The notes under the pieces: model-generated
Databases searched by the model: none
Told to the model about the DNA's origin: nothing
Seen by the model: only the letters and a program-made list of their open reading frames with translations
From: Rivibacter subsaxonicus
Lineage (GTDB): Bacteria; Pseudomonadota; Gammaproteobacteria; Burkholderiales; Burkholderiaceae_C
DNA: 64,000 nucleotides
Assembly (NCBI RefSeq): GCF_004217215.1
Contig: NZ_SHKP01000004.1
Location: forward strand, 1 to 64,000
Direction: 5' to 3'
In this document: positions 45,645 to 56,264 of the stretch, piece after piece
Layout: each line of letters starts with the position of its first letter
How positions within the stretch are numbered: position 1 is the stretch's first letter
Translations under genes and position numbers: made by a program

Positions 45645-46919
45645 CTACTCGTAGCTGCGCGCGTCCTCGATCACCTTGCCGTCGTTGGGCAGGCTGCCGG
45701 CGGCAACCAGCTCGACCTCGCCGCGCAGCTTGGTGATCTCGCGGATCGATTCGACGACTCGCGATGCCAGCGCCTCGTCGGCGCCGGCCGCGGCCTCGAC
45801 GCGCAGGCTCATGCGCTCGGCCGCGATGGTGCCGCTGAGCACGAGGCGCGCGCGCAGCAACTCGGGATGGCGCCTGAGGATCTGCGCGACCTGGCCGGGA
45901 TGCACGAACATGCCGCGCACCTTGGTGGTCTGGTCGGCGCGGCCGAGCCAGCCGCGGATGCGGGTGTTGCTGCGGCCCGTGGGACAGGCGCCCGGCAGCA
46001 CCGCCGACAGGTCGCCGGTGCCGAAGCGCACCAGCGGGTAGTCGGGGTTGAGCGTGGTCACGACCACCTCGCCGACCTCGCCGTCGGGCACCGGCTCGCC
46101 GGTGCCGGGACGCACGATCTCGAGGATCACGCCCTCGTCGAGCACGAGCCCCTCGCGCGCCGAGGTCTCGTAGGCGATCAGGCCGAGGTCGGCCGTTGCG
46201 TAGCACTGGTAGGCCTCGACGCCCTGCGCCCGCACCGCGTCACGCAGGCTCGGCGGGAAGGCCTCGGCCGAGACCAGGGCCTTGCTGAAGCTCAGGCGCT
46301 CGCCGGCCTCGGCCGCCTTGTCGAGCAGCAGCTTCAGAAAGCTCGGCGTGCCGGCATAGGCCTGCGGACGCAGCTCGCGGATCGCCTGCAACTGCAGCTC
46401 GGTGTTGCCGACGCCACCGGGGAACACGGTGCAGCCCAGTGCGTGGGCGCCGCTTTCCATCATCGAGCCGGCCGGCGTGAGGTGGTAGCTGAAGCTCACG
46501 TGAACCAGGTCGCCGGCCTCGATGCCGGCGGCGCGCAGCGCGCGCGCGCTGCGCCAGTAGTCCGCGGCCGCACCCTCGGGTTCGTAGAGCGTGCCGGGCG
46601 ACTGGAACACGCGGCGCGCGCCGCGGCCGGCGCGCAGCCCGCTCCAGCCGATGGCCGAGAAGCCGCCGAAGGGATCGCCGTCGGCGCTCGCACGCGCCTG
46701 CTGCTGGCGTGCCAGCAGGTCGCTCTTGCGGGTGACCGGGAGCCGCGCGAGCGCCTGCCGGCTCGTGATGGTGGCCGCGTCGATGCCTTGCAGGATCTCG
46801 CCAAAGGCCGCCGTGCCGGACTGTGCGGTGGCCACCAGCGCCGGCAGCGCTGCCAGCAGCGCCGCCTCGCGCTGCGCCGGCGCGCGCGTTTCCAGGGGAT
46901 CGAGGACCGGCGGATTCAT
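45645..46919 (-). CDS. Phenylacetate-CoA ligase-like AMP-forming enzyme
   Basis: The 424-residue enzyme belongs to the PaaK branch of acyl-adenylate synthetases, which activate aryl or other carboxylates to CoA thioesters. It has VHVSFSYHLTPAG, the PaaK-type ATYGTPSF-like loop (AYAGTPSFLKLL), YQCYATADLGLIAYE, and the C-terminal hinge and domain (RIRGWLGRADQTTKVRGMFVHPGQV). It lacks the canonical TSGTTG loop in usual form, as in PaaK relatives. ATG 46919 overlaps the MmcQ stop (ATGA). It is the last gene of the Liv-type operon, probably activating the acid that the transporter imports. Phenylacetate is only one possible substrate. Confidence 0.88.
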   Translation of the reverse strand: MNPPVLDPLETRAPAQREAALLAALPALVATAQSGTAAFGEILQGIDAATITSRQALARLPVTRKSDLLARQQQARASADGDPFGGFSAIGWSGLRAGRGARRVFQSPGTLYEPEGAAADYWRSARALRAAGIEAGDLVHVSFSYHLTPAGSMMESGAHALGCTVFPGGVGNTELQLQAIRELRPQAYAGTPSFLKLLLDKAAEAGERLSFSKALVSAEAFPPSLRDAVRAQGVEAYQCYATADLGLIAYETSAREGLVLDEGVILEIVRPGTGEPVPDGEVGEVVVTTLNPDYPLVRFGTGDLSAVLPGACPTGRSNTRIRGWLGRADQTTKVRGMFVHPGQVAQILRRHPELLRARLVLSGTIAAERMSLRVEAAAGADEALASRVVESIREITKLRGEVELVAAGSLPNDGKVIEDARSYE

Positions 46920-47284
46920 GCGAGCAACTCCCTTTGCGTCTTCTTCGGCAGCGCAGCCAGCACCAGCGCATGCGAGCGGCTCACCAGTGCGCGCAGATCG
47001 GGCAACGGCAGGCCGCACGTGGCGTCGACCTTTACCCAGCGGGCTCGTGCCAGGTAGGGCGCCGGCGCGATGCCGGGCAGTCCGGTCAACTCGATGAAGC
47101 GATCGGCATCGACCTTGAACGAGCAGCCCTCCACCGGACCCGGCCAGGGCCCGACGACGAAGAACATCTTGCTGCCGACGCTGGCAACCCAGTCGGCGCC
47201 CCACTTGATGTCGGTGGTCGCGCCGGGCAAGCCCGCGGCATGCTCGCGCAGCGCCTCGAAGGCAGCAGTCGCGGATCGCCTCAT
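46916..47284 (-). CDS. MmcQ/YjbR-family protein
   Basis: The 122-residue protein matches the small MmcQ/YjbR (CyaY-like fold) family: DIKWGADWVASVGSKMFFVVG, FKVDADRFIELTGLPG and WVKVDATCGLP. Members are often next to metabolic operons; the function is unknown, and DNA binding or double-wing folds have been proposed. It overlaps both neighbours by four bases, so it is tightly coupled within the operon. Confidence 0.85.
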   Translation of the reverse strand: MRRSATAAFEALREHAAGLPGATTDIKWGADWVASVGSKMFFVVGPWPGPVEGCSFKVDADRFIELTGLPGIAPAPYLARARWVKVDATCGLPLPDLRALVSRSHALVLAALPKKTQRELLA

Positions 47285-47580: not shown

Positions 47581-47711
47581 GATGAACGATGAAGGCGTCG
47601 CTGCGCGACGGCCGATGAACGATGAAACAACGATTGCCGTGTTCGGGCGCCTTGCTCATTGGCGCCGCAGGCGCCTTCATGCGAGGGCGCAGCCGAGCGT
47701 TCATTGTTCAT
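47581..47711. repeat. Repeat-rich gap downstream of livF
   Basis: The 13-base GATGAACGATGAA occurs twice (47581-47593, 47614-47626), and an inverted near-copy, TTCATTGTTCAT (47700-47711), overlaps the livF stop. A GGCGCC-GCA-GGCGCC hairpin lies between them, and TTCATGCGAG, the livF 3' end, is duplicated at about 47679. The gap can fold into a large structure and may tune expression of the distal genes. Confidence 0.55.
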
Positions 47712-48535
47712 GCGAGCCAGCGCTTGCGCCGCTTGTAGCTCTTCACGTCCCTGAAGCTCTTGCGTGCACTGTCGTCCTTGGCGCCGCCGGTTCCGAGGTA
47801 GAACTCCTTGACGTCCTCGTTCTCGCGCAGCTCGGCGGCCTTGCCGTCCATCACGATGCGGCCGCTCTCGAGGATGTAGCCGTAGTCGGCGTAGCGCAGC
47901 GCGATGTTGGTGTTCTGCTCGGCCAGTAGGAAGGTCACCTTCTCGCGCTGGTTCAGGTCCTTCACGATCTCGAAGACCTCCTCGACGATCTGCGGCGCCA
48001 GCCCCATCGAGGGTTCGTCGAGCAGAACCATGTTCGGGTTGGCCATCAGCGCGCGGCCGATCGCGCACATCTGCTGCTCGCCGCCCGAGGTGTAGGCGGC
48101 CAGCGAGGTGCGGCGGGTCTTGAGGCGCGGAAAGTAGTTGTAGACCTTCTCCAGCGTCTGCGCGACCGCAGCCTTGCCGTCGGTGCGGGTGTAGGCGCCG
48201 GTGAGCAGGTTCTCCTCGATCGTCAGGTGCGCGAAGCAGTGCCGGCCCTCCATCACCTGGATCACGCCGCGCTGCACCAGCTGCGCCGGCGTGAGGCGCT
48301 CGATGCGCTCGCCGCGCAGCTCGATCGAGCCCTTGGTGACGTCGCCGCGCTCGCCGGCCAGCAGGTTGCTGACCGAGCGCAGCGTGGTCGTCTTGCCGGC
48401 GCCGTTGCCACCCAGCAGCGCGACCACGCTGCCCTCGGGCACCTGCAGCGAGACGCCCTTGAGCACCAGGATCACGTGGTTGTAGATGACCTCGATGCCG
48501 TTGACGTTGAGGAGGATGTTCGGTGATGTGCTCAT
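47708..48535 (-). CDS. livF: Branched-chain-amino-acid-type ABC transporter ATP-binding protein LivF
   Basis: The 275-residue ATPase powers the Liv-type importer together with LivG. It has Walker A GGNGAGKTT near residue 43, the LivF-type QVMEGRHCFAHLTIEENLL, the signature YTSGGEQQM, Walker B MVLLDEPSMGLAP and the H-loop replaced by EQN as is usual for LivF. The C-terminus is extended by about 30 basic residues (SFRDVKSYKRRKRWLA), longer than typical LivF. ATG 48535 is in the conserved context. It is the second-to-last transporter component and is flanked on both sides by hairpin-rich gaps. Confidence 0.93.
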   Translation of the reverse strand: MSTSPNILLNVNGIEVIYNHVILVLKGVSLQVPEGSVVALLGGNGAGKTTTLRSVSNLLAGERGDVTKGSIELRGERIERLTPAQLVQRGVIQVMEGRHCFAHLTIEENLLTGAYTRTDGKAAVAQTLEKVYNYFPRLKTRRTSLAAYTSGGEQQMCAIGRALMANPNMVLLDEPSMGLAPQIVEEVFEIVKDLNQREKVTFLLAEQNTNIALRYADYGYILESGRIVMDGKAAELRENEDVKEFYLGTGGAKDDSARKSFRDVKSYKRRKRWLA

Positions 48536-48669: not shown

Positions 48670-50007
48670 TCAGCTCTGACATTCCTCCGGGGTGCGACGA
48701 GTCAGCTTCTTCTCGCTCGCGTACTTGTCGGCCGCGGCCTTGACCATCGGCTTGATGATCTGGTCGTCGCTCTGGAACCAGTCGGAGCTGAAGTTCCACT
48801 TGCTGCCATCCCAGGTGTGGACGCGGGCGTAGGAGGCGCCCATGTGGTCGGCGCAACTGGTCGAGATCGGCCGCATCACGCCCGAGAAGCCAAGCGCGTC
48901 GAGCTTCTTCTGGTCGAGCGCCAGGTTCTCGTAGCCCCAGCGTGCCTGCTCGCCGCTGACGACCTTGCCCTTGCCATAGCGCTCCTGGGCGCGGCGCACG
49001 CCTTCCACCGCCAGCATCGCCGACATCAGGCCGCGCGTGTACAGCACGGTGCCCACTTCCTCCTTCGGGCCGGTGCCCTGGCCCTTTTCGTGGACCAGCT
49101 TCAGCACGTCCTGATGGACCTTGGCCTGGCCGGCGCCATGCTGCAGCGCCAGGCCGTTGTAGCCCTTCGCGCCCTCGCCCACGTCCTTCACGTCGGGCTC
49201 CGCGGCGGCCCACCAGACGCCATACATCTTGTCGCGCGGGTAGCCGGTGGCCACTGCCTCCTTGAGTGCGGCCGAGTTCATCACGCCCCAACCCCACAGC
49301 AGTATGTAGTCGGGCCGGCTCTGGCGGATCTGCAACCAGGCGGCCTTCTGCTCGACGCCGGGGTGCGTGACCGGGATCGCGCTGAACTCGAAGCCGTGCA
49401 TCTTGCTGCGCTCGGTCAGCAGCGGGATCGGCTCCTTGCCGTAGGGGCTGTCGTGATAGACGAGCGTGATCTTCTTGCCCTTGAGCTTGTCGAATCCACC
49501 CTCCTTCTTGGCCAGGTGCTGGATCAGCACGTCGGCCGCCACCCAATAGGTCCCGGCGAGCGGGAAGTTCCACTTGAAGACGTTGCCGTCGGCGCTCTCG
49601 CTGCGGCCGTAGCCGGCGGTGATGAGCGGGATCTTGTCGGCCGGCGCCTTCTCGGTGAGCGCGAATGTGATGCCGGTCGACAGCGGCTGGAACACCGTGG
49701 CGCCGCCGTTCTTGCCCTTGAGCCGCTCGTAGCACTCGACACCACGGTCGGTGGCGTAGCCGGTCTCGCACTCCTCGAACGAGAGCTTGACGCCATTGAT
49801 GCCGCCCTGCGCGTTGACCAGCTTCAGGTAGTCGACATAGCCGTTGGCAAAGGGCACGCCGTTGGGCGCGTAGGCACCGGTGCGATAGACCAGCACCGGA
49901 AAGAACTGCTCCTTGGCCGCCTGGGCGCTGGCGGTGACGGGAGCCAAGGTGGCGCTGATGCCGACCGCCATGACGGCGGCGGCAAGCGCAAGGGACTTCA
50001 GTTTCAT
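48670..50007 (-). CDS. Liv-type periplasmic substrate-binding protein
   Basis: The 445-residue protein (longer than the ~370 of amino-acid LivK) binds the transporter substrate in the periplasm. It has a signal peptide (AAAVMAVGISATLAPVTASAQ), then a periplasmic-binding-protein-type-1 fold (FANGYVDYLKLVNAQGGING, GYGRSESADGNVFKWNFP, YHDSPYGKEPIPLL). GGAGG precedes ATG 50007. Its size and the CoA-ligase partners suggest a carboxylic acid or aromatic ligand rather than leucine/valine. Longer readings of this frame into the permease gene are artefacts. Confidence 0.9.
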   Translation of the reverse strand: MKLKSLALAAAVMAVGISATLAPVTASAQAAKEQFFPVLVYRTGAYAPNGVPFANGYVDYLKLVNAQGGINGVKLSFEECETGYATDRGVECYERLKGKNGGATVFQPLSTGITFALTEKAPADKIPLITAGYGRSESADGNVFKWNFPLAGTYWVAADVLIQHLAKKEGGFDKLKGKKITLVYHDSPYGKEPIPLLTERSKMHGFEFSAIPVTHPGVEQKAAWLQIRQSRPDYILLWGWGVMNSAALKEAVATGYPRDKMYGVWWAAAEPDVKDVGEGAKGYNGLALQHGAGQAKVHQDVLKLVHEKGQGTGPKEEVGTVLYTRGLMSAMLAVEGVRRAQERYGKGKVVSGEQARWGYENLALDQKKLDALGFSGVMRPISTSCADHMGASYARVHTWDGSKWNFSSDWFQSDDQIIKPMVKAAADKYASEKKLTRRTPEECQS

Positions 50008-50084
50008 GTCTGCCTCCAGGGATGGAACAAAGATGCACTCTGCGGTGCGGGAATCACTCGTGACGGGCGTTTCGGCGCCGATGT

Positions 50085-51149
50085 TCAGTGCGGGAATGGC
50101 CACAGGCGCAGCTTTTCCTTGGCGGTGGACCACAGCCGCGCGATACCGTGCGGCTCGACGATCAGGAAGAACACGATCAGCGCGCCGAAGATCATCGACT
50201 CCAAGTGCGATGCCAATGCGGTGTCGATTTGCACGCCGAACAAGGCCGGCAACTGGTTGAGCATGATCGGCAGGATCACGATGAAGGCGGCGCCGAAGAA
50301 GCTGCCCATGATCGAGCCGAGGCCGCCGATGATGACCATGAACAGCAACTGGAACGAGCGGTCGATCGAGAACGCCGCCGGCTCCCACGAGCCGAGGTGG
50401 ACGAAGCCCCACATCGCGCCGGCGACGCCGACGATGAAGGAGCTCACGGCGAAGGCGCTGAGCTTGGCGTAGACCGGCCGGATGCCGATCACGGCTGCTG
50501 CCACGTCCATGTCGCGGATGGCCATCCACTCGCGGCCGATGTGGCCGCGCACCAGGTTCTTGGCCAGCAACGCGAACACCAGAACGACATCGAGGCAGAA
50601 CAGGTACTTGGCCACCGGCGTGTCGAGCGGTATGCCGAGGAAGCTCAGATTGGAAACGTTGACCGAGCCGGACGACGAGTTGTTGGTGAACCAGGCGACG
50701 CGCAGGAATGCCCAGTCGACGAAGAACTGCGCCGCCAGCGTGGCCACCGCCAGGTAGAGGCCCTTGATGCGCAGCGACGGTATGCCGAACAGAACGCCGA
50801 CGGCGGTGGCGCAGGCACCGCCGAGCAGCATCGCCAGCAGCATCGGCATGCCGTCGATGCGGACCTGGAAGTTGTAGGCCGCGTAGGCGCCGACCGCCAT
50901 GAAGGCGCCGGTGCCCAGCGAGATCTGGCCACAGTAACCGACCAGGATGTTCAGCCCGATCGCGGCCAGCGACAGGATCAGGAACGGGATCAGGATCGCG
51001 CGATACAGGTATTCGCTGGCGAAGGCCGGAATGACCAGGAACGCGAAACCCAGCATCAGCAGGATCGCGATTCGGTCCTGCCGGATCGGGAAGATCTGTT
51101 GATCAGCCCGGTAGCTGGTCTTGAACTGGCCGTTCTCGCGGTAGAACAC
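50085..51149 (-). CDS. livM: Liv-type ABC transporter permease LivM
   Basis: The 354-residue inner-membrane permease has about ten hydrophobic segments and LivM family features (GLNILVGYCGQISLGTGAFM, GIPSLRIKGLYLAVATLA, GREWMAIRDMDVAAAVIGI, IIGGLGSIMGSFFGA). It starts at GTG 51149, with AGGAG eight bases upstream, eleven bases after the livH stop. The longer frame extending through livH is an artefact. It pairs with LivH. Confidence 0.93.
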   Translation of the reverse strand: MFYRENGQFKTSYRADQQIFPIRQDRIAILLMLGFAFLVIPAFASEYLYRAILIPFLILSLAAIGLNILVGYCGQISLGTGAFMAVGAYAAYNFQVRIDGMPMLLAMLLGGACATAVGVLFGIPSLRIKGLYLAVATLAAQFFVDWAFLRVAWFTNNSSSGSVNVSNLSFLGIPLDTPVAKYLFCLDVVLVFALLAKNLVRGHIGREWMAIRDMDVAAAVIGIRPVYAKLSAFAVSSFIVGVAGAMWGFVHLGSWEPAAFSIDRSFQLLFMVIIGGLGSIMGSFFGAAFIVILPIMLNQLPALFGVQIDTALASHLESMIFGALIVFFLIVEPHGIARLWSTAKEKLRLWPFPH

Positions 51150-51160
51150 GGATGGAGCTC

Positions 51161-52090
51161 CTAGACGCGATCGATGATCTTTTCGCCGAACAGCCCCTGC
51201 GGGCGAACCAGCAGGAACAGCAGCGCCAGCACGTAGGCGAACCAGATCTCGATGCCGCCACCGAGCATCGGCCCGAGGTAGACCTCGCTGAGCTTTTCGC
51301 CGACGCCGATGATCAGGCCGCCGACGATCGCGCCCGGCACCGAGGTCAGGCCACCGAGGATCACCACCGGCAGCGCCTTCAGCGCCACCAGCGACAGCGA
51401 GAACTGCACGCCGAGCTTGGAGCCCCAGATCACGCCGGCGACCAGCGCGACGAAGCCGGCCACGCTCCAGACGATGACCCAGATGCGGTTGAGCGGGATG
51501 CCGATGCTCTGCGCGGCCTGGTGGTCGTCGGCCACCGCGCGCAGCGCGCGGCCGGTGGCGGTCTTCTGGAAGAACAGGCTGAGTGCCGCCACCAGCGCGG
51601 CGGCAATCAGCGCCGCGTAGAGGTCTTCCTTGTTGATCAGCAGTCCGCCCTCGAACAGGCGATCGAGGATGAAGATCGGCTCCTTGGGCATGCCGATGTC
51701 GATCTTGTAGATGTCGGAGCCGAACACCGTCTGGCCGAAGCCGTCGAGGAAGTAGGCGATGCCGAGCGTGGCCATCAGCAGCGTGATGCCTTCCTGGTTG
51801 ACCAGCTTGGACAGCACCAGCCGGTTGATCAGCCAGGCCACCGCCACCATCACCGCCATCGCGGCGACGAAGCCGAGCACGTTGCCCAGCGTGCGGTTGT
51901 CGAAGCCGAGCCAGGCCGGGATCCACTGCGAGAAGCGCGCCATCGCGAGTGCCGCGAACAGCACCATCGCGCCCTGCGCGAAGTTGAAGACGCCGCTGGC
52001 CTTGTAGATCAGCACGAAGCCGAGCGCGATCAGCGAATAGAGCATGCCGGCCATCAGGCCGCCGAACAGGGTCTCGAGGAAGAAGCCCAT
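51161..52090 (-). CDS. livH: Liv-type ABC transporter permease LivH
   Basis: The 309-residue permease has the LivH pattern: LFGGLMAGMLYSLIALGFVLIYKASGVFN-type start, AVADDHQAAQSIGIPLNRI and VILGGLTSVPGAIVGG. About eight membrane segments are visible. ATG 52090 lies 16 bases after the livG stop. It forms the membrane channel with LivM. Confidence 0.93.
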   Translation of the reverse strand: MGFFLETLFGGLMAGMLYSLIALGFVLIYKASGVFNFAQGAMVLFAALAMARFSQWIPAWLGFDNRTLGNVLGFVAAMAVMVAVAWLINRLVLSKLVNQEGITLLMATLGIAYFLDGFGQTVFGSDIYKIDIGMPKEPIFILDRLFEGGLLINKEDLYAALIAAALVAALSLFFQKTATGRALRAVADDHQAAQSIGIPLNRIWVIVWSVAGFVALVAGVIWGSKLGVQFSLSLVALKALPVVILGGLTSVPGAIVGGLIIGVGEKLSEVYLGPMLGGGIEIWFAYVLALLFLLVRPQGLFGEKIIDRV

Positions 52091-52106: not shown

Positions 52107-52883
52107 TCAGTGGCTGGTGCCGAGGTACGCGCGGATCACGTCCTCGTTGCCGCGCACCTCGTCCGGGGTGCCGTCGCCGATCTTCTTGCCGTAGTCGAGC
52201 ACGACCACGCGGTCGGAGATGTCCATCACCACGCCCATGTCGTGCTCGATCAGCACGATGGTGGTGCCGAACTCCTCGTTGACGTCGAGGATGAAGCGGC
52301 ACATGTCCTGCTTTTCCTCTACGTTCATGCCGGCCATCGGCTCGTCGAGCAGCAGCACCTGCGGCTCCATCGCCAGCGCGCGGCCGAGGTCGACGCGCTT
52401 CTGCAGGCCGTAGGGCAGGCGGCCGACAGGTGTCTTGCGGTGAGCCTGGATCTCGAGGAAATCGATGATGCGCTCGACCACCGCGCGATGCGCCATCTCC
52501 TCGCGCTCGGCCGGGCCGATGCGCAGCGCCTGCAGGAACAGGTTGCTCTTCATGCGCAGGTTGCGCCCGGTCATGATGTTGTCGAGCACGCTCATGCCCT
52601 TGAACAGCGCCAGGTTCTGGAAGGTGCGCGCCACGCCCATCTCGGCCACCTGGCGCGAGTTCATGTGCTTGAAGGTCTTGCCGCGGAAGCTGATCGAGCC
52701 TTCCTGCGGTTGGTAGACGCCGTTGATGCAGTTGAGCATCGAGCTCTTGCCGGCGCCGTTGGGGCCGATGATCGCGCGCACCTCGTGCTCGCGCACGTCG
52801 AAGCTGATGTCCGAGAGCGCCTTGACGCCGCCGAAACGCAGGCTGATGTTGCGCACGTCGAGGATCACTGAACCGTCGGCCAT
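52107..52883 (-). CDS. livG: Liv-type ABC transporter ATP-binding protein LivG
   Basis: The 258-residue ATPase has Walker A GPNGAGKSS near residue 40, LivG-type GVARTFQNLALFKGMSVLDN, a degenerate signature (LPYGLQKRVDLGRAL), Walker B VLLLDEPMAGMN and the switch His in LIEHDMGVV. ATG 52883 shares a base with the ligase stop (TGATG); GTG 52886 is an alternative. Coupling to the ligase gene is therefore tight. Confidence 0.95.
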   Translation of the reverse strand: MADGSVILDVRNISLRFGGVKALSDISFDVREHEVRAIIGPNGAGKSSMLNCINGVYQPQEGSISFRGKTFKHMNSRQVAEMGVARTFQNLALFKGMSVLDNIMTGRNLRMKSNLFLQALRIGPAEREEMAHRAVVERIIDFLEIQAHRKTPVGRLPYGLQKRVDLGRALAMEPQVLLLDEPMAGMNVEEKQDMCRFILDVNEEFGTTIVLIEHDMGVVMDISDRVVVLDYGKKIGDGTPDEVRGNEDVIRAYLGTSH

Positions 52884-54838
52884 CACGCGGCCCTCCCGAG
52901 GGCAGCCGCGGCCGGGTAGGTTTCGGCCTCGCCGATCTTCAGCGTGGCCGAGATGCTACCGCTGCGGCCGTCCTCGAACTTGACCTGGGTCTCGATGTAC
53001 TGCTCGCTCGCACCGGCATAGAGCGCCTCGACCAGCACGCCGTACTTCTCGGCGATGGTGCCGCGACGGACCTTGTTGGTTCGGGTCAGCTCGCCGTCGT
53101 CGGCGTCGAGTTCCTTGTGCAGGATCAGGAAGCGGCTGATCTGCGAGCCCGCCAGCAGCGCGTCGGCGGCGAGGTCGGCGTTGACCTTCTGCACGCAGTC
53201 GCGCACCAACTCCGCCACCTCCGGCTTGGCCGCCAGGTCGGCGTAGCCGGCGTAGGGCAGGTTGCGCTTCTCGGCCCAGTTGCCGACCGCATCGAAGTCG
53301 ATGTTGATGAAGGCGCAGACGCGGTCACGCTGGTGGCCGAAGGCGACCGCCTCCTTGATGAAGGGAAAGAACTTCAGCTTGTTCTCGACGTACTTGGGCG
53401 CGAACAGCGCGCCGTCGCTGGCGCCCCCGGCCAGGCGGCCGACGTCCTTGGCGCGATCGATGATCTTGAGGTGGCCGCCGGCATCGAGAAAGCCGGCGTC
53501 GCCGGTGCGGTACCAGCCATCGGCGCTCGTGACCTCGGCGGTGGCGCCCGGGTTCTTGTAGTACTCCTTGAACAGGCCGGGCGATCGCACCAGGATCTCG
53601 CCGCTGTCGTCGACCTTGATCTCGACGCCCTCGATCGGCACGCCGACGGTGTCGGCACGCACCTCGTTGTCTGGCTGCAGGCAGACGAAGACCGCGGTCT
53701 CGGTCGAGCCGTAGAGCTGTTTGAGGTTGATGCCGATCGAGCGGTAGAAGCTGAACAGGTCGGGTCCGATCGCCTCGCCGGCGGTGTAGGCCACGCGTAC
53801 CCGGGACAGGCCCAGCGTGTTGCGCAGCGGGCCATAGACGAAGAGCTGGCCGAGCGCGTAGTGCAGGCGGTCGATGGGAGGCAGCGGGTGGCCGTCGAGT
53901 GCCGACGGGCCGACCCGGCGTGCCAGGTCCATGAAGTGCCGGAACAGCCAGCGTTTGAAGCTGCCGGCGTCTTCCATGCGGATCATCACGCTGGTCAGCA
54001 GGCCCTCGAAGACGCGCGGCGGCGCGAAGTAGTAAGTGGGGCCGACCTCCTTCAGGTCGATCGTCACCGTGCTCGCGTTCTCCGGACAGTTGACGACATA
54101 ACCGCAGGCCAGCCACTGCGAGTAGCTGAAGATGTTCTGGCCGACCCAGGCCGGTGGCAGGTAGGCCAGTACTTCCTCGTGCTCCGTGAGCTTGTCGAAG
54201 CGGGCGCCGGCGGCGGCGCGGTCGATCAGCGAGGCGTGCGTATGCACCACGCCCTTCGGGTTGCCGGTGGTGCCGGAGGTGAAGAACATCGCCGCCACGT
54301 CCTGCGGCTGCGCGCGCTCGCCCTCGGCCCTGACGAAGTCAGGCTGGTGGATGTTGAAGTTGAGCCCGTCAGCCACCAGCGTGTCGAGCGAGGCCAGGCC
54401 CGGCTCCTCGACCTTGCGCATGCCGCGCGGGTCGTCGTACCAGATGCGTGCGAGGCGCGGGCATTGCGGGCGGATCTCGAGCAGCTTGTCGACCTGCTCC
54501 TGGTTCTCGACGATGGCGAAGCCGACCTCGGCGTTGCCGAGCGGAAACAAGAACTCGGCCGCGACGGCGTCCTGGTACAGCGGCACCGGGATACCGCCCA
54601 GTGTCTGCACTGCCAGCATCGAGGCGTAGAGCCGGGGACGGTTGTCGCCGACCACGACCACATGGTCGCCGCGCGCGAGGCCGGCCGCCGCGAGACCGCC
54701 GGCTATATCGCGCACCAGCGCGGCCAGTTCGCCCCAACTCAGCGTCTGCCAGATGCCGTATTCCTTCTCGCGCAGCGCCGGCGCCTGCGGGCGCTGCGTC
54801 GCGTGCTCGTGAAGAAGGCGAACGAACGTGGTCTGCAC
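52883..54838 (-). CDS. AMP-forming long-chain-type acyl-CoA synthetase
   Basis: The 651-residue enzyme activates a carboxylic acid to its CoA thioester via an adenylate. It has the ATP loop FFTSGTTGNPKG near residue 190, YGSTETAVFVC near 370, the WYRTGDAGFLD motif and IIDRAKDVGRL near the C-terminal hinge. It resembles the long-chain (FACS-like) group seen at the head of Liv operons. It starts at GTG 54838, with AAGGAG eight bases upstream. It is the first gene of the nine-gene operon. A TAGCAT -10 lies at 54871-54866, with a regulator-like palindrome just upstream. Confidence 0.92.
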   Translation of the reverse strand: MQTTFVRLLHEHATQRPQAPALREKEYGIWQTLSWGELAALVRDIAGGLAAAGLARGDHVVVVGDNRPRLYASMLAVQTLGGIPVPLYQDAVAAEFLFPLGNAEVGFAIVENQEQVDKLLEIRPQCPRLARIWYDDPRGMRKVEEPGLASLDTLVADGLNFNIHQPDFVRAEGERAQPQDVAAMFFTSGTTGNPKGVVHTHASLIDRAAAGARFDKLTEHEEVLAYLPPAWVGQNIFSYSQWLACGYVVNCPENASTVTIDLKEVGPTYYFAPPRVFEGLLTSVMIRMEDAGSFKRWLFRHFMDLARRVGPSALDGHPLPPIDRLHYALGQLFVYGPLRNTLGLSRVRVAYTAGEAIGPDLFSFYRSIGINLKQLYGSTETAVFVCLQPDNEVRADTVGVPIEGVEIKVDDSGEILVRSPGLFKEYYKNPGATAEVTSADGWYRTGDAGFLDAGGHLKIIDRAKDVGRLAGGASDGALFAPKYVENKLKFFPFIKEAVAFGHQRDRVCAFINIDFDAVGNWAEKRNLPYAGYADLAAKPEVAELVRDCVQKVNADLAADALLAGSQISRFLILHKELDADDGELTRTNKVRRGTIAEKYGVLVEALYAGASEQYIETQVKFEDGRSGSISATLKIGEAETYPAAAALGRAA

Positions 54839-54892
54839 CTGGGTTCTCCTTGCGGATGCGTCGCGATGCTAGGGCGCGCTTTGACGCCGAGG

Positions 54893-54908
54893 TGTCTTTC
54901 CAAAGACA
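54893..54908. promoter_or_regulatory. Predicted Crp/Fnr-family operator between regulator and Liv operon
   Basis: TGTCTTT-CC-AAAGACA is a perfect 16-bp inverted repeat, the size of Crp/Fnr-family sites. Its centre lies about 41-42 bases upstream of the start expected from the TAGCAT -10 at 54871-54866, the class II activator position. The neighbouring divergent gene encodes a Crp/Fnr-type protein. Confidence 0.65.
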
Positions 54909-55000
54909 ATCTAAGGGCCTGTCCGGAAGGGACTTTCCCACCCCCTGATCGCAAGTCGCTGGCTCCTCCCGTGCAAACCGTCGCCCCCGAAGCGCTCACC

Positions 55001-55708
55001 ATGGCCGGCCTGCGGGCGCGCTCGCGCGCGGCGCACACCGACGAGTTCGATGCCGTGCCCTGGGTGGCGCGGCTGGACGACGAGGATCGCCTGCTCGCGC
55101 AGCAGACGATGCGGGTGGTCGAGGTGGCCGCTGGCGAGACGGTGTGCCGCGTCGGCCGTGCCCCGACCTACTGGTTCGGCCTGCTCGACGGCCTGCTCAA
55201 GATGAGCAACGACTCGGCGGTCGGGATGCCGATCACCTTTACGGGCGTGCCGCCTGGCGGCTGGTTCGGCGAGGGCACCGCGCTCAAGCGCGAGCCCTAC
55301 CGCTACAACATCGAGGCGCTGCGCAGCAGCCTGGTGGCCGGCATACCGGTCGAGACCTTCCATCTGCTACTCGAACGCAGCATCGGCTTCAACCGCTTCA
55401 TCCTGCAGCAGCTCAACGAGCGGCTCGGCCAGTTCATCGGTGCGCGCGAGATCGACCGATTGAGCGACCCCGACTCACGCGTCGCACGCAGCCTGGGCGC
55501 ACTGTTCCATCCGGTGCTCTACCCCGGCGTCGGCTCGCTGCTCAAGATCACCCAGCAGGAGCTGGGCTACCTGGTCGGCCTGTCGCGCCAGCGGGTCAAC
55601 GTCGCGCTGCGAACGTTGCAGGCGGTCGGCCTGATCCGCATCGAGTACGGCGGTGTGCGCGTGCTCGACCTCGAAGGCCTGCGGCGCTACCAGTCGCGTG
55701 CGGCATGA
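55001..55708 (+). CDS. Crp/Fnr-family transcriptional regulator
   Basis: The 235-residue protein has an N-terminal cyclic-nucleotide-binding-like beta-roll (GETVCRVGRAPTYWFGLLDG, PPGGWFGEG), a long dimerisation helix (LQQLNERLGQFIG) and a C-terminal winged helix (TQQELGYLVGLSRQRVNVALRTL). There is no Fnr-type cysteine cluster. ATG 55001 is the conservative start; GTG 54971 in frame would add ten residues. It is divergent from the acyl-CoA ligase-Liv operon and probably activates it. The effector is unknown; an acyl-CoA or the imported acid is plausible. Confidence 0.88.
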   Translation: MAGLRARSRAAHTDEFDAVPWVARLDDEDRLLAQQTMRVVEVAAGETVCRVGRAPTYWFGLLDGLLKMSNDSAVGMPITFTGVPPGGWFGEGTALKREPYRYNIEALRSSLVAGIPVETFHLLLERSIGFNRFILQQLNERLGQFIGAREIDRLSDPDSRVARSLGALFHPVLYPGVGSLLKITQQELGYLVGLSRQRVNVALRTLQAVGLIRIEYGGVRVLDLEGLRRYQSRAA

Positions 55709-55754: not shown

Positions 55755-56264
55755 TCAGACGCGGCGGCGCGTCGCGACGAAGCCGATCGCGCCGAGGCCG
55801 GCCAGCATCAACGCGTAGGTGCCCGGCGCGCGCGCGGGCGGGATCTCGAGCGCGTCTGCGGGGTCGTTGCCGTCGGCAGCCGGCGGCCGATCACGGGCGA
55901 TGGTCGCGTCGGCGTAGAGGTCGGCCGCACGGCTGTGCGTGTCATAGCCGATGCCGCCAGCCAACTCGCTGAACGCAGCGTCGGCACCAGGGCGGTCGGG
56001 GTTCGCGAAGCCGCCGTCGTTTGCGGCAGCCGTGCAGATCAGGCACCGGCCGGTTGCTTCGCCGTCCTGGCTCGGGCCAGCGTGCCAAGCGGCACTGGCA
56101 TACCAGCCAAGCTCGAAGGGTCGGAACTCCTCGGAGCCGTGGCGGACGAGCGCGTCACGTACGGCGCCGCCGTCGCCGTAACCGAAGATGTACTGATCCT
56201 CGGCCAGCGCCGGGATGCTCATGACCGTGGCGATGGCGAGCACTCGCAAGGAGGCTTGGTTCAT
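55755..56264 (-). CDS. Exported protein with PEP-CTERM-like C-terminal anchor
   Basis: The 169-residue product has a signal peptide (VLAIATVMSIPALA) and ends with ARAPGTYALMLAGLGAIGFV followed by basic residues. This is the PEP-CTERM sorting tripartite tail except that the usual PEP reads RAP. In PEP-CTERM systems exosortase cleaves this tail during export to the surface. The central part is Asp/Gly-rich and not recognised. AAGGAGG precedes ATG 56264. No exosortase gene is in the window. Confidence 0.7.
   Translation of the reverse strand: MNQASLRVLAIATVMSIPALAEDQYIFGYGDGGAVRDALVRHGSEEFRPFELGWYASAAWHAGPSQDGEATGRCLICTAAANDGGFANPDRPGADAAFSELAGGIGYDTHSRAADLYADATIARDRPPAADGNDPADALEIPPARAPGTYALMLAGLGAIGFVATRRRV

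Follow-up and report, generated by a model that had tools for sequence, protein, structure and literature searches.

A conserved putative TGTC-N8-GACA operator with predicted class II geometry between a Crp/Fnr-type regulator and a divergent acyl-CoA ligase/Liv-type ABC operon

CRP binds 16-bp sites with the half-site TGTGA, and at class II CRP promoters the site is centred at -41.5, with a -10 hexamer present and no -35 hexamer of its own. In FNR, a cysteine cluster holds a [4Fe-4S] centre. CooA carries a glutamine at the position of E181 in CRP. CooA sites are printed as TGTCGGCNNGCCGACA (PMC545781) and as tGTCg-N6-tGACa (PMC8047169), and HbaR of Rhodopseudomonas palustris is described as a Crp/Fnr sensor of 4-hydroxybenzoate that controls its degradation (PMC4424350). 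For the group of regulators described here, searches of an open-access library found no description.

The window, i.e., the whole 64,000-nucleotide stretch of Rivibacter subsaxonicus DNA that was analysed, encodes a protein with a cNMP-binding domain (PF00027, 5.6e-13) followed by a Crp-type helix-turn-helix (PF13545, HTH_Crp_2, 1.2e-12), both above cut-off, which places it in the Crp/Fnr superfamily (Table 1). A previous sequence-only reading had taken it for a Crp/Fnr protein without a cysteine cluster, and this is borne out, because there is a single cysteine in its 235 residues; in this respect the regulator differs from FNR. With CRP-type systems it shares the same domains, a 16-bp site and class II geometry, but it scores only 34.1 bits on the CRP equivalog model NF008732, against a cut-off of 266, and its half-site is TGTC in 80 of 80 relatives where CRP has TGTGA. 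The helix-turn-helix aligns without gaps with that of the solved chain 4cyd, which we take to be GlxR of Corynebacterium and whose helix was the nearest seen, SRETVN standing opposite SRQRVN; the E and T of the 4cyd recognition helix are thus Q and R in the window regulator. Convergent to the regulator gene, at 55755-56264, lies a gene for a small protein that bears a PEP-CTERM sorting motif.

Table 1. Coordinates of the operator, promoter elements and genes in the window
Feature	Position	Strand	Remarks
Operator TGTCTTTCCAAAGACA	54893-54908		Exact match; core TGTC-N8-GACA
-10 hexamer TAGCAT, ligase promoter	54866-54871	minus	21 bp from operator
Predicted transcription start of ligase operon	54859	minus	Inferred from -10 position
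AAGGAG ribosome-binding site	54846-54851	minus	7 nt before ligase GTG start; direct reading
-35 hexamer TTGACG, regulator promoter	54881-54886	plus	
-10 hexamer GACAAT, regulator promoter	54905-54910	plus	18-bp spacer; overlaps right half of operator
Conserved block GGG-N4-CCC-N5-GG-N2-TTTCCC	54915-54939	plus	At or just after predicted regulator start
Crp/Fnr-type regulator, 235 aa	55001-55708	plus	Recognition helix SRQRVN
AMP-binding acyl-CoA ligase, 651 aa, GTG start	52883-54838	minus	First gene of presumed operon
LivG-like ABC ATPase	52107-52886	minus	Below NCBIfam equivalog cut-off
LivH-like permease	51161-52090	minus	Below NCBIfam equivalog cut-off
LivM-like permease, start uncertain	50085-51161	minus	Pfam BPD_transp_2
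Liv-type periplasmic binding protein, start approximate	48670-50010	minus	Pfam Peripla_BP_6
LivF-like ABC ATPase	47708-48535	minus	Below NCBIfam equivalog cut-off
PaaK-like AMP-binding ligase, start approximate, downstream	45645-46970	minus	Below NCBIfam equivalog cut-off

Between the regulator gene and the divergent ligase operon lies, as the sequence-only reading had proposed, the perfect palindrome TGTCTTTCCAAAGACA, centred at 54900.5. With up to three mismatches, 0.02 occurrences of this sequence are expected from dinucleotide shuffles of the 64-kb window, and TGTCTTT-NN-AAAGACA with up to two mismatches is found at one further place in the whole 3.94-Mb genome. To follow the palindrome among relatives we used the best 80 of 101 matches of a contig search and added more from genomes of the order. 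The close set comprises 84 loci, the window included, with regulators at least 60% identical, and in 80 of them the ligase is adjacent and divergent. Conservation wherever regulator and operon co-occur had been named in advance as a check on the palindrome, and TGTC-N8-GACA is present between the genes in all 80 of these loci (drawn partly from the best 80 of 101), against about 0.05 core matches expected at the rate of such words in the Rivibacter genome, although such counts are not independent trials because the aligned loci share descent. The core also occurs in 21 of 21 members of a distant set from other families of the order (regulator 45-55% identical) when the search extends to 120 bases past the aligned start, and in 19 of 21 in a narrower search; 17 of the 21 have a divergent ligase no more than 450 bp away. 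No site was found at three loci with regulators below 40% identity (L029, L030, L032). Conservation drops toward background about 50 bases from the site on both sides. The site is genuine, and over a hundred related bacteria conserve it. Four loci were left out of the counts, namely L001, a copy of L003, and L002, L028 and L031, which gave no tblastn match to the regulator. L005 carries two TGTC-N8-GACA words; the spacing and consensus counts use the one within the composite pattern TTTGACG-N6-TGTC-N8-GACAAT (at most one mismatch), and the conservation profiles and core search use the other.

The consensus from 80 relatives, TGTCGttctgaCGACA, has the form TGTCG-N6-CGACA. Perfect 7+7 arms are found in 3 of the 80 close loci, the window among them, and the inner positions are variable; the window copy differs from the consensus in two rare bases, a T at position 5 (3/80) and an A at position 12 (1/80). 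The sequence-only reading had predicted a new specificity within the family, which is not supported as worded because the core matches the published CooA sites. Compared by site alone, and with CooA sites as printed, the 16-bp length, the TGTC...GACA core and the TGTCG-N6-CGACA form are common to both, and the TGTC half-site is therefore a known alternative in the superfamily. The targets differ: those of CooA are CO-oxidation and cowN genes, whereas the operator here adjoins an acyl-CoA ligase/ABC operon, and a Pfam scan of 11 neighbouring proteins returned no CO dehydrogenase. The operator looks like that of a new regulon with a CooA-like core, not like a wholly new kind of recognition.

We then considered the position of the operator with respect to the ligase promoter. 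The palindrome is separated by 21 bases from TAGCAT, which, if this hexamer occupies -12 to -7, places the operator centre at -41.5, in agreement with the earlier estimate of 41-42 bases from the predicted start. The distance to the start had also been named as a check, and the predicted spacing is kept: in 76/80 close relatives 21 bp separate the operator from the best -10 hexamer, and in 4/80 the distance is 22 bp, while in 200 shuffles no offset gathered more than 10. In the distant set the best -10 hexamer lies at 21-22 bases in 14 of 21 loci, compared with a shuffle maximum of 4 at one offset; all hexamers were scored with textbook base frequencies. By eye, the conserved profile has no -35-like hexamer at the usual distance on the ligase strand. 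In its geometry, reckoned from the predicted start, the ligase promoter corresponds to a class II Crp-dependent promoter, and a class II activator reading is well supported in silico.

A second promoter, missed by the earlier reader, faces the first. A search of 54700-55100 for sigma-70-like promoters returned TTGACG-18-GACAAT alone, against a mean of 0.0 over 50 shuffles, and this promoter points toward the regulator gene. The operator sits in its spacer and over its -10 hexamer, so a bound dimer should block the regulator promoter. TTTGACG is kept at 94-100% per base among the 80 close relatives. It is also kept where genes separate the site from the regulator, in eight loci (L172-L179) and in three of four rearranged genomes, all of which were found by a pattern that itself contains TTTGACG, and in L173 the intervening gene runs in the opposite direction; TTTGACG may therefore not serve only as the -35 hexamer of the regulator. 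The block found where the regulator transcript is predicted to begin is conserved in most of the 80 relatives, and GGG..GGGTctaACCC or a similar sequence was noted in several of L172-L179. Folded one sequence at a time, the 113 leaders had a mean z of -0.61 (43/113 below -1), versus 0.09 for 135 control stretches. RNA structure was rejected as an explanation of the block, as RNAalifold found no consensus structure in the 113-row alignment and no column pair was outstanding. The block corresponds to no known operator and to no RNA hairpin with support.

Taken with the layout of both promoters, the conservation of the operator leads us to a reading to which we give a probability of roughly 0.8, in which a dimer of the neighbouring regulator at the operator would act both as a class II activator of the ligase/Liv operon and as a repressor of its own gene. 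In the presence of its signal, the regulator would bind the operator as a dimer, and from -41.5 this dimer would recruit RNA polymerase to the ligase promoter, with its -10 and no recognisable -35 hexamer, and so switch on the operon for the acyl-CoA ligase and the Liv-type ABC transporter. This dimer would also fill the spacer and cover the -10 hexamer of the face-to-face TTGACG-18-GACAAT, so that the regulator gene would be repressed. The regulator might instead repress the ligase operon, or both promoters, given the general knowledge that Crp/Fnr proteins can repress and that the site coincides with the expected contact of sigma region 4 on the ligase promoter; we hold this to be improbable, since a repressor needs no fixed spacing, whereas the strict 21-bp spacing and the missing -35 hexamer are a class II layout.

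Activation by the neighbouring regulator also has to be weighed against binding of the site by another Crp/Fnr paralogue, such as a global regulator, which we consider a little less probable again than repression. The genome has three more homologues of the regulator (E up to 0.001), and TGTC-N8-GACA occurs in it at 14 places versus 3 for the reversed control. The presence of the site, however, follows the neighbouring regulator. In a family sample of 150 genomes the composite is present in 120 (reversed control, 0), the regulator (E <=1e-60) in 125 and the ligase (E <=1e-150) in 125; site and regulator occur together in 119 genomes and are both missing from 24, leaving 7 discordant, one with the site only and six with the regulator only (five regulator-less genomes in this table were assigned by elimination). 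Inspection resolves five of the seven: G395, the site-only genome, has a regulator fragment beside the site, and G324, G419, G431 and G441 have an exact core between regulator and ligase. The other two regulator-only genomes are G380, which has both genes but only a degenerate site with two core mismatches, and G330, which has no ligase. Further against a paralogue, 118 of the 120 genomes have a single copy of the composite and the other two have two copies, so that it is not spread over a regulon, and distant regulators keep helix and site together. Outside the family the composite is rare: in a sample of 300 genomes of the order it is found in 9/9 genomes of the same family and in 2/291 others (reversed control, 1/300), and the two outside matches (L114, L124) have neither regulator nor ligase nearby.

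Rearranged loci show which gene the site accompanies. In the places of the family sample that were given as loci, the ligase adjoins the site in 30/30. Four loci have a regulator with no adjacent ligase and no site there (L039, L068, L109, L110), and each of these four genomes carries one composite, beside the ligase (L167-L170; up to two mismatches allowed, none found). The site lies about 1.7 kb from the regulator of L068, with one gene between, and about 4.6 kb from those of L109 and L110; L039 lies at a contig end. Conversely, nine loci of the family have no regulator near the site; in the eight viewed further (L172-L179) the regulator lies 1.4-2.9 kb off in the same direction, and L127, the ninth, lies close to the end of its contig. 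The site thus travels with the ligase promoter, as rearranged and separated loci alike keep it beside the ligase. By eye, genes resembling secretion ATPases (MYAAFFGLEH...), with a partner in some cases, lie between operator and regulator in L174-L179; running in the same direction, they are possibly co-transcribed with the regulator.

A one-site regulon does not account for the excess of 14 over 3 core words, among which there may be additional sites of the same regulator or of a different Crp/Fnr protein. Leaving the window site aside, seven of the remaining 13 places fall within a reading frame, as judged by a rough composition filter, and six do not (L002, L154, L156, L159, L164, L165); none of the 13 matches TGTC-N8-GACAAT or the composite. 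In L002, TGTCTTATATAAGACA (1501-1516) has, by eye, a malate-dehydrogenase-like gene on one side and a divergent GntR-type gene on the other, and is probably the operator of this adjacent GntR-type regulator. In L164, the core (1501-1516) lies between an acyl-CoA-ligase-like gene and a gene resembling a Liv-type binding protein.

Perfect 7-N2-7 palindromy alone is unremarkable in the 64-kb window, which holds 33 such palindromes. That the operator is one more chance inverted repeat, conserved only through the promoter elements that overlap it, would fit this number and the unconserved inner arms, but is very improbable, since TGTC and GACA are invariant in 80/80 loci, none of the promoter hexamers covers any of TGTC (GACA, by contrast, overlaps GACAAT), and both are kept in distant relatives with no match to the TTTGACG composite.

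In the recognition helix of the aligned regulators R-Q-R-x-N is invariant, being found in 83/84 of the close and 20/21 of the distant set with gaps in the remainder; the preceding residue is S, once C, and x is V or A, once T. TGTC-N8-GACA is presumably read by this R-Q-R-x-N. Seven homologues from one family in a phylum sample, a family of another class that we infer to be Alphaproteobacteria, have SRQN or SRQR helices and TGTC-N8-GACA upstream in 7/7. Divergent from the site these loci carry a LivG-like gene, 57-59% identical to that of the window, followed by an AMP-ligase with 36-43% identity over the part of the sequence covered. Among plasmid paralogues (8 of 23 records), the site lies close to the start in 3/4 of those with SRQR-x-N, L182 being the exception, and in 0/4 of those with other helices. 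The helix-to-site rule is not absolute: the site was found in 0/5 remote paralogues with SRQRVNQEL (L207, L209-L212), some SRQN- and SRQT-type homologues do carry TGTC-N8-GACA, and a third group with SRQV helices (L197, L202, L203) has none. Three remote paralogues with SRQTTN helices and 27-28% identity (L204, L205, L208) have TGTC(A/G)GC-N2-GCCGACA near their own start, almost the CooA consensus. On an Aminobacter plasmid (L188), AMP-binding and ABC genes follow, in the same orientation, a Crp/Fnr homologue whose helix is SRPVAN, and there is no TGTC-N8-GACA site.

The composition of the presumed target operon suggests that it imports a carboxylic acid and activates it with CoA. Its Liv-type binding protein is related to the solved chain 4ru0_A (E 8.4e-116), and a search of the literature for the substrate of the operon found nothing. 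The signal would probably be the carboxylic acid that the operon imports and activates, or its CoA thioester. The HbaR locus presumably has a ligase and branched-chain-type ABC genes nearby. As a Crp/Fnr sensor of an acid, HbaR offers a functional parallel.

More broadly, it is tempting to speculate, at slightly less than even odds, that these regulators form a branch of the Crp/Fnr superfamily, present in at least two classes, in which an S-R-Q-(R/N)-x-N helix would read TGTC-N8-GACA. The ligase/Liv switch would then be an ancient one-site device answering to a carboxylic acid or CoA thioester so far unassigned to the family, and the leader block might add a second layer of control. For a widespread group of regulators, the work presented here supplies a predicted operator, the promoter geometry, a target operon and candidate DNA-reading residues. 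Two questions become testable, namely the identity of the acid handled by the ligase/transporter operon, and the extent to which the replacement of E by Q in the recognition helix sets TGTC versus TGTGA across the superfamily.
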